Under the pieces are notes generated by a model. The model searched no databases. It was given only the letters and a program-made list of their open reading frames with translations, and was not told the origin of the DNA. A stretch of 64,000 bases of DNA from assembly GCA_019721035.1 (NCBI GenBank), contig JAHEAA010000009.1:1-64000 (forward strand), given 5' to 3'. The translations under genes and the position numbers were made by a program. Source of the stretch: Candidatus Sysuiplasma acidicola. Its GTDB lineage: Archaea; Thermoplasmatota; Thermoplasmata; Sysuiplasmatales; Sysuiplasmataceae. The first letter of the stretch is position 1; each line of letters opens with the position of its first letter. This document shows, in pieces, positions 1,613-21,394 of this stretch.

Positions 1613-2006
1613 TGTTCTCCCTCCGGACCACCCTCTATCTGACTCCTTTCCTTGAGTATTTTTCCTTCTTCCTTATTTGCCAATTTTGTCCAATGGATTA
1701 AGGGGGCAGACCAAGGAAGAGCGTAATCTGAAAAATCAGGGCACTGAACTCACTTATCGAAGCAAGCCGCTATCAAATATCTAAATATTTGCCAGTTTGA
1801 GACAAGTTTTCAAAATATCGCTGCTGTCACTTATCGGAGTAATACTTCTGGGGCTGCTGGGAGGATCAGAATCAAAATTGCCAGCCTCTTCAATATGAAG
1901 TTTTACACTGTTTCAGAGCATAGTTCTTAAGTTTCGGACACGTTGTGTATAATTGGTTATAGATGATTTGCAAATGTGCATCTACAAGTAATGGAAATGA
2001 TGGTGG

Positions 2007-2473
2007 ATGAGTGACAGGACCAAATTAGCCAATCTGTTAGATTGTCTAGGGATAGATTTGGTTGAACTAAGGGAAGTGAACAACACCGAGCTACGTCTTA
2101 AGGTGCAGAAGACCGTCTATCTACTTAACTATCTCAGGGAGAAAGGATTTGATTATCCATTTTCATTTTACGTTAGGGACCCTACTCTAGAGCGCTCGCC
2201 CTGGATTATTATAGAATTGACTCCACGCGGCCTGGTATGATCAAGAATCTGGAGGTAGTAAAGCAGTTCTTTACGCGTGAGACGTCATGGCTTGAATTGG
2301 CTTCAACGATGCTTATGGTTCACAAGGACAACGTGGGGCGTTCAAACGTCAATGAATTCGAGATAGTCAAGAATATCAAGCCCTGGATTACTCTTCCCAA
2401 GTTTCGTGAGATAATCAATGAATTCAATCAAAGCCATGTGCGTACCATGGTGAAGAATACATCACGAATTTAG
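2007..2473 (+). pseudogene. YwgA/Panacea-like (DUF4065-type) protein, frameshifted
   Basis: Two short reading frames overlap here: 2007-2240 (77 codons) and 2237-2473 (78 codons). The first carries KVQKTVYLLNYLREKG and FSFYVR, matching the KLQKLVYLL and FxxY start of YwgA/Panacea domains. The downstream frame continues with GPYSRALALDYYRIDS, which restores the family's YxxGPYS motif. Adding one G to the GGG run at 2176-2178 would join the two into a protein of about 155 residues. So one base has been lost here, by mutation or by sequence error. Panacea relatives include antitoxins; there is no toxin candidate beside this copy. Confidence 0.6.
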
Positions 2474-2724
2474 TTCAATACTCAGCTGTTACTGACTCTT
2501 ATGATGGGAGCTGACCTTGACTCACTGAACGAAATTAGGAAGAGTCTCATATGAGTAAGAATGCTATTCCGACCGACGTTTACGCGTTATCTTTTTTTCT
2601 TTCTCTACTCACGGTGCGCAGACTGCTGATATTGCAGCGACCGTTCCTAAGACACAGATTGTCCCGTGAAGCCATTCACTCAACATATGGCACTAAGATG
2701 CGGTTATAATTCGGCAACGTTAAA

Positions 2725-4605
2725 ATGGAAGTGGCTGCCTTAATAGGGTTGCCAATGGATAGTCATAGCGGCATCACCGCCACCTCCGGGGAACTTACGA
2801 GGAATCTGTCGTTCAGGGACGTGTTCTTTCTGTCATTTGGCGGTATGTCGCCATTACTCAGTCTCCTGACTTACGGCGCTGTGGCCCTCGCGTTCGGCGG
2901 ACCTCTCGCACCGCTGATAATGGTAATGGGCACACTCCTCGTCCTTGTAAACGGCCTTGTTGTAATGCAATTATCCAAGCGGTTCAGAACATCCGGCGGC
3001 TACTACACCTATGCCTTTCAGGTTCTTTCGGAGAGAGTAGGCTTCAGCACGGGCTGGGTGTATCTCTTTTATTCCATGCTGTTCGGAATGGCATATGTGA
3101 TTGGAGCCGTGTTTGTTGTCTCAACAGTCATCGGGCTGCCGAGCTTTATTACACTGATGGCCATAGTCATTCCCGCCTCAGCATTTCTGATTGCAGGCAT
3201 ACGACCGTCGGCGAAGTATGCCGTATACACGGGCATAGTGGAGATTGCTCTCATACTTGTCATAGTTGCCCTCTCATTCTATCTGACAGGAGGCGCCGCA
3301 TACCTACCCAACCCCGCCGTATACCACATCACGGGCGGTGAATTTGTACTCGGAATACTGTTCGCAATGGGTATTCCGACCGGATATGGCGCGATTGCAC
3401 CGATATCAGGCGAAGTGAAGAATTCCGAGAAGGTGATTGGAAAATCAGCGGTTTCGGTCATATTGACTGGCGGCCTGCTTGCCACCCTTTTCATATATGG
3501 AATTTCAAACCTGCTTCTACAGGAAGGGCTTAAGATTCCTGCAGGAGTTTCAGGTCTTCCGATCCTGTCCGCCATAACTCATGACTTCTCCGCATACGGC
3601 GGATATCTCACGATTGCAGTGACTGTTGCAGCACTTAATGACGGCATCCTAGCAATCCTCTCGTTTGGCGCGGCCGCCTCAAGAACAATGTTCAGAATGG
3701 GGTACGACAGATCTTTTCCCAGCATATTTGCAACGAAGATCAGAAACCAGCCGATTGTGGCAAATATTGCTGTTTCTGTTATCATACTCTCAGTACCTCT
3801 GGTTCTGATACTCAACCTGCCCTTGACAGTTTCATTTATCATTCTTGGAACAATTGCCTCCCTTGGTGGGCTCTTCATTCACATAATGGCTGGCGCCTCC
3901 CTCATGCGGGTCGGTATGAGGAGGGGGAAGAGGCTTCTCCTGAGGGGTCCGAAGGATTCAGCGCATGTGCTGTACGACTACAGGGAGGCGGTTCTCGCTG
4001 TGGTCGCTGCCACCATAACAACCGTGGAGCTGGTATATTCGGCATATTCAACGCTCCTGGTATACTCAGCGCTTTTCCTGCTCTGGATAGTTGCAGGATA
4101 CATGATACTGGACGTGAGAGATATAGTAACCAGGACGCCATATACTGCAAGGCTGTTCAAGGGCGAGTTATCCATGGCGGAAAGGTTCAAAGATCTCACC
4201 AGTCTGAAAATCAGGAGAGCGCTGCCTGATGTTGTCGTGCAGATGGACGAGAATTTGAAGAGTGCAGTTGACAGGTGTGTGTCCCTGGATGCCCAGGGCG
4301 CCGCGGTTATCGACCGCCTGTCCAATCCTGTGGGTACAATGATACTGCGTGATGTGTTCCTGCTTTCGGAAAATGAGATAATGCGGATGAAGGTCGGGGA
4401 TCTGTGGCTGGAGCGCCCTGTAACAATAGGCAAGGACAGCGATGTCACCGAAATAATCAGGACTTTCAAGGAAAGCAGGATGCCGATCCTGAGTATCGTT
4501 GACGAGAACGGGAAGCTGGTAGGAACGGTCAGGGAGAGGGAAGTGCTGATGGCACTGGGTGGAGGCGTGGAGGGGAGTGGCAGCACTGAAGCACCTGCAT
4601 CTTAG
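2725..4605 (+). CDS. APC-superfamily amino-acid permease with C-terminal CBS domains
   Basis: A 626-residue membrane transporter. Residues about 30-460 form a 12-helix amino acid-polyamine-organocation fold that begins with the typical FxDVFFLSFGGMSP segment. The remaining part is soluble and ends in a CBS-domain pair (about 500-615; VKVGDLW-like start, MPILSIVDENGKLVG at the second unit). In other transporters CBS pairs bind adenine nucleotides and regulate flux, so energy-state control is inferred. An alternative ATG at 2755 would remove ten non-conserved residues, and a TATA-like TTATAA at 2704 lies just upstream. It stands alone on this strand. The substrate cannot be read from the sequence. 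Confidence 0.85.
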   Translation: MEVAALIGLPMDSHSGITATSGELTRNLSFRDVFFLSFGGMSPLLSLLTYGAVALAFGGPLAPLIMVMGTLLVLVNGLVVMQLSKRFRTSGGYYTYAFQVLSERVGFSTGWVYLFYSMLFGMAYVIGAVFVVSTVIGLPSFITLMAIVIPASAFLIAGIRPSAKYAVYTGIVEIALILVIVALSFYLTGGAAYLPNPAVYHITGGEFVLGILFAMGIPTGYGAIAPISGEVKNSEKVIGKSAVSVILTGGLLATLFIYGISNLLLQEGLKIPAGVSGLPILSAITHDFSAYGGYLTIAVTVAALNDGILAILSFGAAASRTMFRMGYDRSFPSIFATKIRNQPIVANIAVSVIILSVPLVLILNLPLTVSFIILGTIASLGGLFIHIMAGASLMRVGMRRGKRLLLRGPKDSAHVLYDYREAVLAVVAATITTVELVYSAYSTLLVYSALFLLWIVAGYMILDVRDIVTRTPYTARLFKGELSMAERFKDLTSLKIRRALPDVVVQMDENLKSAVDRCVSLDAQGAAVIDRLSNPVGTMILRDVFLLSENEIMRMKVGDLWLERPVTIGKDSDVTEIIRTFKESRMPILSIVDENGKLVGTVREREVLMALGGGVEGSGSTEAPAS

Positions 4606-17870: not shown

Positions 17871-18432
17871 ATGAAAGTCAGGCACAGGACAAAAGAAAAC
17901 GCATTACCCGAGGACGTGTACCGTTGGAAGGTGGTTCTGTCTGAAGAAAATTGTCAGGAACACGGTTATTGTCTGTCTTGTGGCAGGACTCGTTGCACTC
18001 AACGTTTTTACGGGCTTTTACAACAACACGAAGCCTGCCAACTCCTATCCGGGTTATCCTTCTATCATGTTTGCCTATAATGCCGGAAACATAACAGTTT
18101 TCATCCACGGCGCTCTTGGCCCTTATTTTTACAACAATATCACCGTTACTGGCAGTTACAGTTACGCGGGGAATCATTCTCTGAGACTGGTTAAGTATGC
18201 AAATAACACATATTACCTCGGGCTTCAGGTGCGTGCATCAATTATGTCAATAAATGCGACGGCAATAGACAGCTCACAGAGCACGGAGTACTATTACAAC
18301 GCGAGTATAACCGTCAATCCTTCCGCTACGGTAAGCGTCGAGAAGCAGGTTGCCGGAAGCAGACACATTCATGTTCTGGTCCTCGGCAATACTCCATATG
18401 TTGGTGCAATGGAGGGCATTAAAATTGCCTAA
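17871..18432 (+). CDS. Putative exported or membrane-anchored protein, probable frameshift near its 5' end
   Basis: From GTG 17980 the frame encodes 150 residues, rich in Asn, Tyr, Ser and Thr, a beta-rich extracellular composition with several N-x-S/T sites. A typical signal-anchor, LKKIVRNTVIVCLVAGLVAL, is encoded in the same frame but upstream of 17980, with no ATG, GTG or TTG to start it. The ATG at 17871 has a TATA-like ATATATTTTA 28-35 nt upstream and opens MKVRHRTKENALPEDVYRWKVVL in another frame, ending where the anchor begins. One base too many near 17935-17945 would explain this. A CTG start at 17941 is the alternative. Confidence 0.5.
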
Positions 18433-18730
18433 ATTGTCAATTTCCGGTGTTATATGGTCTGCAGTCATTGCGATTCTTGTGCTGTTCGAGATACTTCAGT
18501 TCTCCGGTATAATACGATTATCATCGATTGCTGCAAATTTCTACATATTCATGTTTTCTCTTGTAACGATCTCCATACTGGCTGTCATAGGTGCAATTTT
18601 TCTTGGAATAACAATAGCGCACAGACTTCTGGAATCAAAGGGGTTCACCCCGTTTGAGGTGGAGATGCTTGCAATGAAGGAGCAGATTTCAGAAATGCGC
18701 AAAGCCATCGATGAACTCCTGCGTAAGTAG
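18425..18730 (+). CDS. Small membrane protein with C-terminal helix
   Basis: About 101 residues. Two transmembrane helices (GVIWSAVIAILVLFEILQF and YIFMFSLVTISILAVIGAIF) precede a charged helix (EMLAMKEQISEMRKAIDELL) likely to form a coiled coil. I chose the TTG at 18425, which overlaps the upstream stop by a few bases and has GGAGGG about 7 nt before it. Upstream frame residues lie inside the preceding gene. It is probably an operon partner of the exported protein before it. Family unknown. Confidence 0.65.
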   Translation: MPKLSISGVIWSAVIAILVLFEILQFSGIIRLSSIAANFYIFMFSLVTISILAVIGAIFLGITIAHRLLESKGFTPFEVEMLAMKEQISEMRKAIDELLRK

Positions 18731-18742
18731 CACGCACAAGTG

Positions 18743-19780
18743 TTAAACGAGGCGCTCCGGGCAGATGTTCCTTCTGGAGCAGTTGAGGCATTTACCCGGT
18801 CTGTTGTGATTCCTGTGTGCGTTTCCCGCATCTTCTGCACTCTTCATCTCTGATACTTTTGTCATCAGAAGTTTTTCCACCTCGTCGTCGTAATCCACGG
18901 CAAATCTCTTTGTACCGTAATATATGAAACCGAAATCCGGCCTCTTACCGTAGTTGTCCTCAACGAGTTTGCAATAGGCTGAAATCTGTATCACGTGGGA
19001 GAACAGAGGCCCGGATGGTACTCTCCCTGACTTGAATTCCACAGGCATCAGCATACCGTCACTCTCTACTATGAAATCCGGTCGACCAGAGATGCTTCGG
19101 TTCTCTGAAACAAGCACAGGATGGCTGTCGTCGCCTATGTATACGATCTTCCCGCTGATGTTCATACTTCTTTCGAGTCGTAATGCCTTCTCTTCCACCC
19201 TCAAATCAAGGTAGAGAAAGCTACTTGCGCCAATGAGCCAGATGAGTGATGCTGTCTCCAGTATCTCTGCCAGAAGTGTGTTGACCTGAAGTATGGTCAC
19301 AGACATTATGGACAGGACCATAGACAGCGTAGCCAGGAAGAGGATAAGCCGTTCCGTCAGCCTCTTCCTGCTGTAGACCTCCGTCCTGGTCAGATAAAGT
19401 ATTGACAGCGAGAGCAGTAGCCACACCACCGCCACAAGCAGCAGTATTCTTGAGATCATGAGCTTCTGGTCAAAGTTCACGAGTGAAATGCCTATCGCGG
19501 CGAGGGCCGTCGCAATCACGGCGTAATACATGATCATCCTGCTGTAGAGGACACTTTCTGCCTGTTTTCCAGACAGGTTGGACAGATCAGCACTCAGCTT
19601 TTCGTGTGCCAGAGTGCCTGCGCTGGTATTCTCTCCCTGTGTAGTGTTATCGCTCCTGCTGAGCCACCAGCTCATGGGGCAGTAACAGAACTTTTCCACC
19701 TCGCCCGCGGAGAAAGATCTATCTGCCATTGAGACCGATTGCTTCATGGAAGGATAAAAACGATTGCATGTGCTTTTCAA
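18743..19780 (-). CDS. Cas4-like PD-(D/E)XK nuclease with membrane insert
   Basis: A 345-residue protein. An N-terminal Cys pair (FCYCPMSWWL, residues 32-34) and a histidine in AGTLAHEKL (59) match the start of Cas4/RecB nucleases. About 110 residues (81-192) with four hydrophobic helices then interrupt the fold. The nuclease core follows: Asp235 in GRPDFIVES, Glu248/Lys250 in PVEFKSG and QISAY at 265-269. Finally Cys331, Cys334 and Cys340 (CLNCSRRNICP) complete a four-cysteine iron-sulfur site. All catalytic residues are present. Translation may start at TTG 19780, overlapping the upstream stop (TTGA), or at ATG 19729, which begins MADRSFSAGEVEKFC. No CRISPR genes are near. Confidence 0.82.
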   Translation of the reverse strand: MKSTCNRFYPSMKQSVSMADRSFSAGEVEKFCYCPMSWWLSRSDNTTQGENTSAGTLAHEKLSADLSNLSGKQAESVLYSRMIMYYAVIATALAAIGISLVNFDQKLMISRILLLVAVVWLLLSLSILYLTRTEVYSRKRLTERLILFLATLSMVLSIMSVTILQVNTLLAEILETASLIWLIGASSFLYLDLRVEEKALRLERSMNISGKIVYIGDDSHPVLVSENRSISGRPDFIVESDGMLMPVEFKSGRVPSGPLFSHVIQISAYCKLVEDNYGKRPDFGFIYYGTKRFAVDYDDEVEKLLMTKVSEMKSAEDAGNAHRNHNRPGKCLNCSRRNICPERLV

Positions 19781-20562
19781 TTCGCAAACTTTTTACTTGC
19801 GCTTAGTGCCTTTTCGAGCTCGCCGAGTATGCTTTCGTCTCCGATGAGAATGGAATCTTCGCTCTTCATGTCATCTATGTAGCCAAACCAGTAGAGAACA
19901 AGCCCTTTTCCAAAAAGCGTCACATATTGGTGGAACTGTCTCCTGTTGTTCTTTCTCAGCTCGATATCATCGCCGAACGACGCCTTCGAATCTATCCATT
20001 TGATTTCATAACCGTTGTAATCCAGCGGCTCATCAAGGAGGAAATCCGGAGTCTTCGGAAACTTTCCGCGCAAATCCGCTTCAGTCCTGTATTTTATGCC
20101 CTGTTCGTCCAGCCATTTGGCAAGCTTCTCCTCTCCCTTTATTCCACGCTGTTTCTGAACTTCGGCACCTTCCGGAGAATAAAGTATGTCGCTCTTCCTT
20201 ATGGCAATCATTTCAGATTTCAGCCTCTTGTCCGTTATTGTTTCTGGCTCCCTGACCATCTTCCAGAAACGCTTTCGGCCCACGTTGTCCTGCGACATCA
20301 GTATGAGTCCGAGTAATATTGGCGGAAAATTGAGCCTCCTTGCTATTTTGACCATCGGCTCGCCGTTCTTCCATCTTCTCAGGAGAGATGGTGCCATTTC
20401 TACGATCTGGTAATAATCGCGCGTCGCGAATCTCACAGTGCGCTGGGTGTAAATTACCAGCATTAGCTCTTCATCAAGCTTTGTCTTTTCGGCCATCTTG
20501 GCTATGTCCTCAGGCCTGCGGAGAGAATAGTATATGTCGGAATACAAGTCCCTGTTCATCAT
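19777..20562 (-). CDS. TPD-motif (CDIN1/C15orf41-like) PD-(D/E)XK nuclease-fold protein
   Basis: A 261-residue protein. Residues 1-100 are helical (LRRWKNGEPMVKIARRLNFP). The core has PEGAEVQKQRGIKGEEKLAKW, then the name-giving TPDFLL (171-176), then YEIKWIDSKASFG (185-197), which supplies the E-x-K-like and SKA elements. These match the archaeal and eukaryotic TPD family, whose human member is codanin-1 interacting nuclease 1. The biochemical role in archaea is unknown. It overlaps the Cas4-like gene by TTGA, so the two are surely co-translated. The strand and spacing suggest it is the first gene of the pair. Confidence 0.85.
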   Translation of the reverse strand: MMNRDLYSDIYYSLRRPEDIAKMAEKTKLDEELMLVIYTQRTVRFATRDYYQIVEMAPSLLRRWKNGEPMVKIARRLNFPPILLGLILMSQDNVGRKRFWKMVREPETITDKRLKSEMIAIRKSDILYSPEGAEVQKQRGIKGEEKLAKWLDEQGIKYRTEADLRGKFPKTPDFLLDEPLDYNGYEIKWIDSKASFGDDIELRKNNRRQFHQYVTLFGKGLVLYWFGYIDDMKSEDSILIGDESILGELEKALSASKKFAN

Positions 20563-20710: not shown

Positions 20711-21394
20711 TTGACTCAGTTGAATTTTTTCACGTCAGAAGAGGTGCCACCATGGCTGCCTCCACCGGCCAGAGAAGCGCGCAGCTATGCTTTCTGGGCA
20801 CAGATCGTTGCACTCATTGAAATTCCCATTTCTGTGGTCCTTTCTATTGTTTCATTTTATTATTACTTCAAGTTCTCAGCTCCGGGATATGTGATAGTGA
20901 ATCCCAATGCGGCCGCATATTCCACGTCATATCTGTGGCTCTCGGTCTACTTCCTTGCAGTAATCTTCGTTTCAATACTGGAAATTAGTTTCATAAAGGC
21001 GCATGTGAGTTCGCTTATTGACACTGGCAAGTTCGTCCCTGCTGAGGAGCGGGCAATCATCTGGGGTATTGTGTCCATTCTCTTCGGCTTCCTGCCGGGA
21101 ATTTTCCTAATTGCCTGCGCGTATCGTCTACGTGCGATGAACAGTGAAATGCCACAGAGCGCCATGCAGAGTGTTGGCTCGCAAACTGATGTCCATACAA
21201 CGGCGAAGCAAGAAGTACCTCAGCAATGGCATCCGCAGAAACAGGAACAGCAGACCAGGCCGCAGCAGTACAACGTGCCCGCGGCAACAACAACCCCAAG
21301 GCATCACACTGACATGGTAAAGTGCAAGAAGTGCGGTGCTTCTTATCCTGCGTTCATGCACGCCTGTCCGAATTGCAACGAGCCGAAGAGTTGA
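20711..21394 (+). CDS. Membrane protein with C-terminal zinc ribbon
   Basis: A 227-residue protein. Three to four transmembrane helices lie over residues 25-145 (IVALIEIPISVVLSIVSFYY; LWLSVYFLAVIFVSILEISF; AIIWGIVSILFGFLPGIFLI). A Gln/Pro/Thr-rich linker (about 150-200) follows, then a zinc ribbon CKKCGASYPAFMHACPNC. The zinc ribbon is cytosolic or extracellular depending on topology. The TTG start at 20711 overlaps the stop of a 13-codon ATG frame at 20673, which itself sits about 30 nt after a TATA-like ATAATAAATA. This could be a short leader or a small indel. Function unknown. Confidence 0.7.
   Translation: MTQLNFFTSEEVPPWLPPPAREARSYAFWAQIVALIEIPISVVLSIVSFYYYFKFSAPGYVIVNPNAAAYSTSYLWLSVYFLAVIFVSILEISFIKAHVSSLIDTGKFVPAEERAIIWGIVSILFGFLPGIFLIACAYRLRAMNSEMPQSAMQSVGSQTDVHTTAKQEVPQQWHPQKQEQQTRPQQYNVPAATTTPRHHTDMVKCKKCGASYPAFMHACPNCNEPKS

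Follow-up and report, generated by a model that had tools for sequence, protein, structure and literature searches.

DNA ends are processed by nucleases of the Cas4, Dna2 and AddB types, and MGME1, Dna2 and the EXO5-type nucleases of the RecB family thread single strands; none of the latter three is known to carry a membrane insert comparable to the one described here. Cas4 (COG1468, PF01930, TIGR00372) combines the PD-(D/E)XK fold and its D-ExK-QxxxY residues with a GxxxH helix and four cysteines, one N-terminal and three C-terminal, and the known members are soluble single-chain proteins. Solo-Cas4 proteins are encoded outside CRISPR loci and, in the main text of a phylogenomic survey, are treated as passed on vertically and without a known function (PMC5704561); a search of that main text by term returned neither membrane inserts nor split Cas4 forms, and searches of the open-licence literature found nothing relevant on membrane Cas4 or on the archaeal Lamin-tail/phospholipase-D (LTD-PLD) proteins considered below. 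ACE1, of the Argonaute-associated Cas4 family, is likewise a solo Cas4-type nuclease outside CRISPR, its structures being those of compact proteins of ~266 residues (9iab). Cas4-type nucleases can act on incoming DNA: Synechococcus cells that lose a Cas4 homologue transform more readily (PMC7125226), and in the same genus plasmid transfer or maintenance is reduced by a Cas4-like nuclease (PMC10653904). The TPD/CDIN1 family (PF14811) also bears on the locus: its human homologue was tested extensively without any nuclease activity being seen (PMC7261414), and Codanin-1, the partner of CDIN1, is a eukaryotic protein.

Here, we describe a protein, Cas4-TM, that passes the sequence and fold tests for Cas4 and departs from the soluble single-chain layout of the known members. 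Its gene lies on the minus strand of the window (the whole stretch of 64,000 nucleotides analysed) at 18743..19729, stop codon included, and encodes 328 amino acids counted from a conserved ATG at 19729. Pfam, NCBIfam and PADLOC searches and family alignments place it among the Cas4-type PD-(D/E)XK nucleases, with profile scores of 3.8e-12 for PDDEXK_1, 4.9e-7 for Cas_Cas4 (PF01930) and 4.6e-19, above the cut-off, for TIGR00372 cas4. The AlphaFold model (mean pLDDT 89) consists of a Cas4/MGME1/Dna2-type nuclease from which the insert rises as long helices, and Foldseek matched it to Cas4 (8d3l, E 4.6e-6), human MGME1 (5zyv), ACE1 (9iab) and Dna2 (5ean). Profiles and predicted fold thus agree with the original prediction, made from the letters of the window, that the gene is Cas4-like. 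Unlike the MGME1, Dna2 and EXO5-type set, Cas4-TM has no helicase domain, and, unlike in the ACE1 case, no Argonaute gene was recognised beside it in the window.

The catalytic domain is divided into two pieces. The N-terminal piece (residues 1-59, 19553..19729) contains the cluster cysteine C17 (19679-19681) and H42 (19604-19606), is supported by invariant columns and corresponds to the separate N-gene of the split versions discussed below; the C-terminal piece (residues 190-328, 18746..19162), defined by profile search, alignment and Foldseek, holds D218, E231-x-K233, Q248, Y252, C314, C317 and C323. Across 64 homologues C17, H42, D218, K233, Q248, Y252, C314, C317 and C323 are invariant and E231 is conserved at 90% or above, so that the D-ExK core, QxxxY and the four cysteines are retained as had been claimed. 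The four cysteines probably bind a [4Fe-4S] cluster.

Between these pieces, and between residues 59 and 181, hydropathy and the model agree on four transmembrane (TM) helices that separate the N-terminal cysteine/GxxxH helix from the D-ExK core; the predicted splitting of the Cas4 domain by a membrane insert is therefore upheld, and the insert breaks the uninterrupted soluble chain otherwise typical of Cas4. It comprises a first hairpin (residues 60-118, 19376..19552, minus strand, with TM helices at 66-84 and 95-113), recognised by hydropathy and by homology to the second, and a second hairpin (residues 119-180, 19190..19375, minus strand, TM helices at 128-146 and 156-174), recognised by hydropathy, hhalign and the AlphaFold model. 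Profiles of the two aligned over 55 columns with an hhalign probability of 99.1 (E 6.4e-19), shuffled or reversed controls reaching at most 6.3, and by this sequence comparison the insert is a tandem repeat of a single TM hairpin. The model shows the first TM helix and the last one as parts of long helices that leave the nuclease domain (residues 33-82 and 151-189). Nearly all forms in the phylum have 2, 4 or 8 TM helices by hydropathy; simple hydropathy called three in 7 of 79 proteins of the four-TM class and in one f44 protein, calls taken as reflecting a missed weak helix. Lysine and arginine are enriched in the loops on the nuclease side, which, together with the mostly even TM counts, supports a cytoplasmic location for both nuclease pieces. 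The eight-TM versions (L157, of 580 aa, L160, L155, L156 and L168) apparently have four hairpins within one Cas4 domain, and the C-terminus of the L160 open reading frame (1929-3884) runs into a seemingly TRAM-like RNA-binding domain (EEVTITDIGKKGDGLTRVDGRVIFVPG).

In some genomes the protein is made in two parts. Weaker Cas4 matches in families f1 (the window's own family, as a second copy), f9, f17, f26 and f43 proved to be C-terminal halves beginning with a TM helix, and each sampled C-half has an upstream partner gene encoding the first cysteine, a GxxxH-like motif and a terminal TM helix. Those examined in f1, f9 and f17 are C-halves of split membrane pairs, and we rejected their reading as ordinary soluble Cas4. 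In a fresh sample from f9 and f17, the N-gene product was tail-anchored in 20 of 20 loci, and in all 20 the distance from the N-gene stop to the C-half TM helix lay between -27 and +30 nt; the split point is thus the hairpin loop, as it also is in f43, leaving one TM anchor on each half. The window genome itself has a second, split copy (G000:C3, ~65,580-66,352; L013 1079-1399 and 1387-1851), whose two genes, again cut in the hairpin loop, overlap by 13 bp and lie behind a saccharopine-dehydrogenase-like gene. The same arrangement occurs on plasmids of the bacteria Singulisphaera, Paludisphaera and Bacillus subtilis, where Pfam places PDDEXK_1 positions 1-43 weakly on the N-gene and about 111/122-247 on the C-gene. 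The plasmid pairs (L189 1235-2007, L190 1091-1872 and L191 1179-1917) are annotated as a hypothetical protein followed by a PD-(D/E)XK or Dna2/Cas4 domain protein, and their surroundings include methyltransferases and MobF relaxases, or a helicase, a toprim protein and pilus-type ATPases. A frameshift artefact was rejected as the source of the split forms, which recur in 20 of 20 independent loci and in annotated plasmid records. The cut in the hairpin loop identifies the membrane hairpin as the joint between the catalytic halves, and, because a hairpin joins both catalytic pieces in every form, attachment to the membrane belongs to the architecture rather than being an accident of a single gene. 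In a phylogenetic tree that included four CRISPR Cas4 sequences, fused and split forms stood apart from the latter with a support of 97, the deeper branching being poorly resolved.

Upstream on the same strand, at 19777..20562, lies a gene for a TPD/CDIN1-family protein, a predicted PD-(D/E)XK nuclease with a helical N-terminal part. Alignment and a PF14811 match (1.3e-41) make it a clear member, as had been predicted; both family motifs are present and conserved, T-P-D172 (20044-20046) and D/E190-S-K192, and its model (pLDDT 94.7) gave weak restriction-enzyme-like structural matches. Farther upstream, a divergent gene (20711-21394, plus strand) encodes a membrane protein with a C-terminal zinc ribbon, and this gene (cluster 5) is found upstream of TPD in several other families too. 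Both open reading frames of the original prediction are present on the minus strand; the TTGA overlap between them, by contrast, is a start-codon artefact. The TTG that would create it is not a start codon in the nearest relative (84% identical), the equivalent of ATG 19729 is the start in all seven family genomes, and a TATA-like box, TTTTTATC, at 19753..19760 (minus strand) is conserved in these genomes ~31 bp before the ATG. With the start so placed, ~47 bp lie between the stop codon of TPD and the cas4-TM ATG, and the translational coupling that had been supposed is unsupported. A TATA-like A+T peak recurs at -36 to -25 of the cas4-TM start across 52 loci, which together with the conserved box makes a promoter of its own and a leaderless mRNA probable for cas4-TM.

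The linkage of the two nuclease genes varies as well. Of 109 genomes, 35, from seven families (f1, f3, f6 in one case, f19, f20, f29 and f30), carry TPD immediately upstream of cas4-TM and in the same orientation; the genes are thus neighbours in relatives of the window genome, where the insert is a membrane one and the catalytic residues are conserved. In most other families they occupy separate loci, closed chromosomes included, or TPD is absent: f7 and f13 are without TPD, and f6 and f9 have TPD without fused Cas4-TM. Co-occurrence among 198 genomes was weak (odds ratio 1.8, p 0.08, shared ancestry ignored). The pairing that had been anticipated was found as adjacency in seven families, and a TPD-Cas4 functional unit is not supported; we regard TPD as an optional accessory in some lineages.

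Relatives of Cas4-TM were found throughout the phylum Thermoplasmatota. The fused form occurs in 112 of the 198 genomes tabulated from a class sample of 200, mostly as one copy per genome, and is near-universal within most families. Its neighbours in the window, which include genes for an RNase HII-like protein and an ABC-type ATPase, are of the housekeeping kind and form no defence island. No relatives were found in viral_contigs, nor in phages for the Bacillus C-half, and a viral or phage origin was rejected. Taken together, vertical inheritance, the mostly single copy, phylum-wide occurrence, near-universality in most families, lack of viral relatives and the housekeeping neighbourhood suggest a core function and speak against a patchily distributed defence gene.

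Two other neighbours are stronger than TPD: a convergent 2-TM gene and the gene for a secreted LTD-PLD protein. A gene for a protein with two TM helices and a cytoplasmic tail (cluster 7; 18428..18730, plus strand, defined by alignment) lies tail-to-tail with cas4-TM; a convergent gene of this kind, separated from cas4-TM by 3-63 bp, occurs in 52 genomes from 10 families and is the most conserved neighbour, and its product carries the motif FTPFEEEMLxMK. It is preceded by a cluster 3 gene (17980..18432, plus strand, from neighbourhood clustering and alignment), whose product has one N-terminal TM helix or lipoprotein-like signal and an extracytoplasmic domain; genes for lipoprotein-like or anchored extracytoplasmic proteins precede the 2-TM gene at many loci. 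The gene pair at 17980-18730 had no confident Pfam match. One or both genes also stand beside cas4-TM at two loci outside the class (L159, L163). We regard the downstream GlmS and nucleotidyl-transferase genes of f3, f20 and f29 as unrelated synteny.

The secreted LTD-PLD protein has a Lamin-tail, two PLD domains, often a PKD domain and a C-terminal TM helix (e.g. L146 3341-5977 and L116 3836-5956, among others). Its gene immediately precedes cas4-TM in the same orientation in families f14, f18, f21, f23, f24 and f27, and in f13 it lies close by. In the members read, each PLD domain has an HxKx4D motif, giving two HKD motifs per protein, and LTD-PLD is a candidate surface nuclease of Thermoplasmatota; alternatively, the substrate of its PLD domains may be lipid and not nucleic acid. 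LTD-PLD and Cas4-TM co-occur strongly in the 198 genomes (odds ratio 10.6, p 1.6e-13, shared ancestry ignored). A full LTD-PLD homologue is absent from the window genome and the rest of f1, and f6 has LTD-PLD mostly without Cas4-TM; the pairing is therefore not obligate.

The architecture of Cas4-TM is well supported; the metal cluster, the nuclease activity, the single-stranded substrate and a role in DNA entry are inferred. We suggest that TM hairpins inside the catalytic domain would hold the nuclease on the cytoplasmic face of the membrane, the long first and last TM helices placing the catalytic domain directly beneath it. From there it would digest or trim single-stranded ends of DNA arriving at the inner face, as part of the uptake or scavenging of extracellular DNA; in many families, the secreted, membrane-anchored LTD-PLD protein would be its partner on the outer face. 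The predicted fold, which resembles end- or single-strand-acting Cas4, MGME1, Dna2 and ACE1, counts for DNA-end trimming, and the secreted PLD partner counts for DNA that comes from outside. An outer nuclease working with one at the membrane, as proposed here, has its parallel in the bacterial transformation machinery, with ComEC and a surface nuclease, but we identified no DNA-import channel: ComEC (PF03772) was found in 0 of 200 class genomes as against 10 of 14 control genomes, and ComEC-type uptake was set aside. Our preference for this reading is tentative and stops somewhat short of even confidence.

The PLD partner and the Synechococcus effects on incoming DNA tilt the choice towards uptake or scavenging and leave as main rival a membrane-stationed, CRISPR-independent defence that degrades viral or plasmid DNA during injection or transfer. 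Such a defence would suit the membrane location, the matches to PADLOC Cas4-family and PLD profiles, the plasmid split pairs near methyltransferases and MobF relaxases, the lowered plasmid transfer or maintenance in Synechococcus (PMC10653904) and the anti-correlation of Cas4-TM with Cas1 (odds ratio 0.36 among 198 class genomes, from counts that ignore shared ancestry). It fits poorly with near-universality in most families and a housekeeping context, and the PADLOC matches (Cas4/DruK/DrmC) reflect superfamily only, with no defined multi-gene defence system; solo-Cas4, moreover, evolves like ordinary genes according to the main text of Hudaiberdiev et al. (PMC5704561). We consider defence rather doubtful. 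A membrane-bound Cas4 of CRISPR adaptation is barely conceivable: the TIGR00372 cut-off is passed, but Cas1 was not found in the window genome and is absent from most carriers, Cas4-TM is not encoded with cas1/cas2, and the tree sets it apart from CRISPR Cas4. The link to CRISPR was rejected on these grounds, in agreement with the original prediction of a membrane-inserted, Cas4-type nuclease with putative Fe-S cysteines outside CRISPR.

A membrane-attached nuclease for chromosomal repair or recombination, partnered with TPD, is improbable. The adjacency in 35 genomes of seven families, the intact nuclease motifs of both proteins and the processing of DNA ends by Cas4/Dna2/AddB-type nucleases speak for it, yet the genes mostly occupy separate loci and come and go independently, cas4-TM has a separate putative promoter and extensive tests of the human TPD homologue revealed no nuclease activity (PMC7261414). 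No better placed is the idea that the hairpins are a sensor or regulatory switch responding to membrane damage, for example by degrading DNA upon infection or death: hairpin number varies, two-piece forms must assemble in the membrane and a 2-TM gene with its lipoprotein-like neighbour is conserved alongside, but the insert joins two essential catalytic pieces in every form, which an anchor explains at least equally well, and no sensor domain was found. Beyond uptake or scavenging by the tethered nuclease, a broader reading, which at present we hold unlikely, is that membrane Cas4 (fused or split), surface LTD-PLD and the lipoprotein-like/2-TM pair might form a hitherto undescribed apparatus for DNA import or extracellular-DNA processing in Thermoplasmatota, whose sampled class lacks ComEC, with the same split form of membrane Cas4 working on bacterial plasmids.

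Solo-Cas4 proteins are among the commonest CRISPR-related proteins without a known job. A phylum-wide, membrane-embedded branch in which the hairpin is the catalytic joint would give them a concrete place of action, and connects them with a nuclease-like secreted partner among archaea that have no standard DNA-uptake channel. Conservation outside CRISPR across an archaeal phylum points to an undescribed form of DNA processing at the cell membrane.
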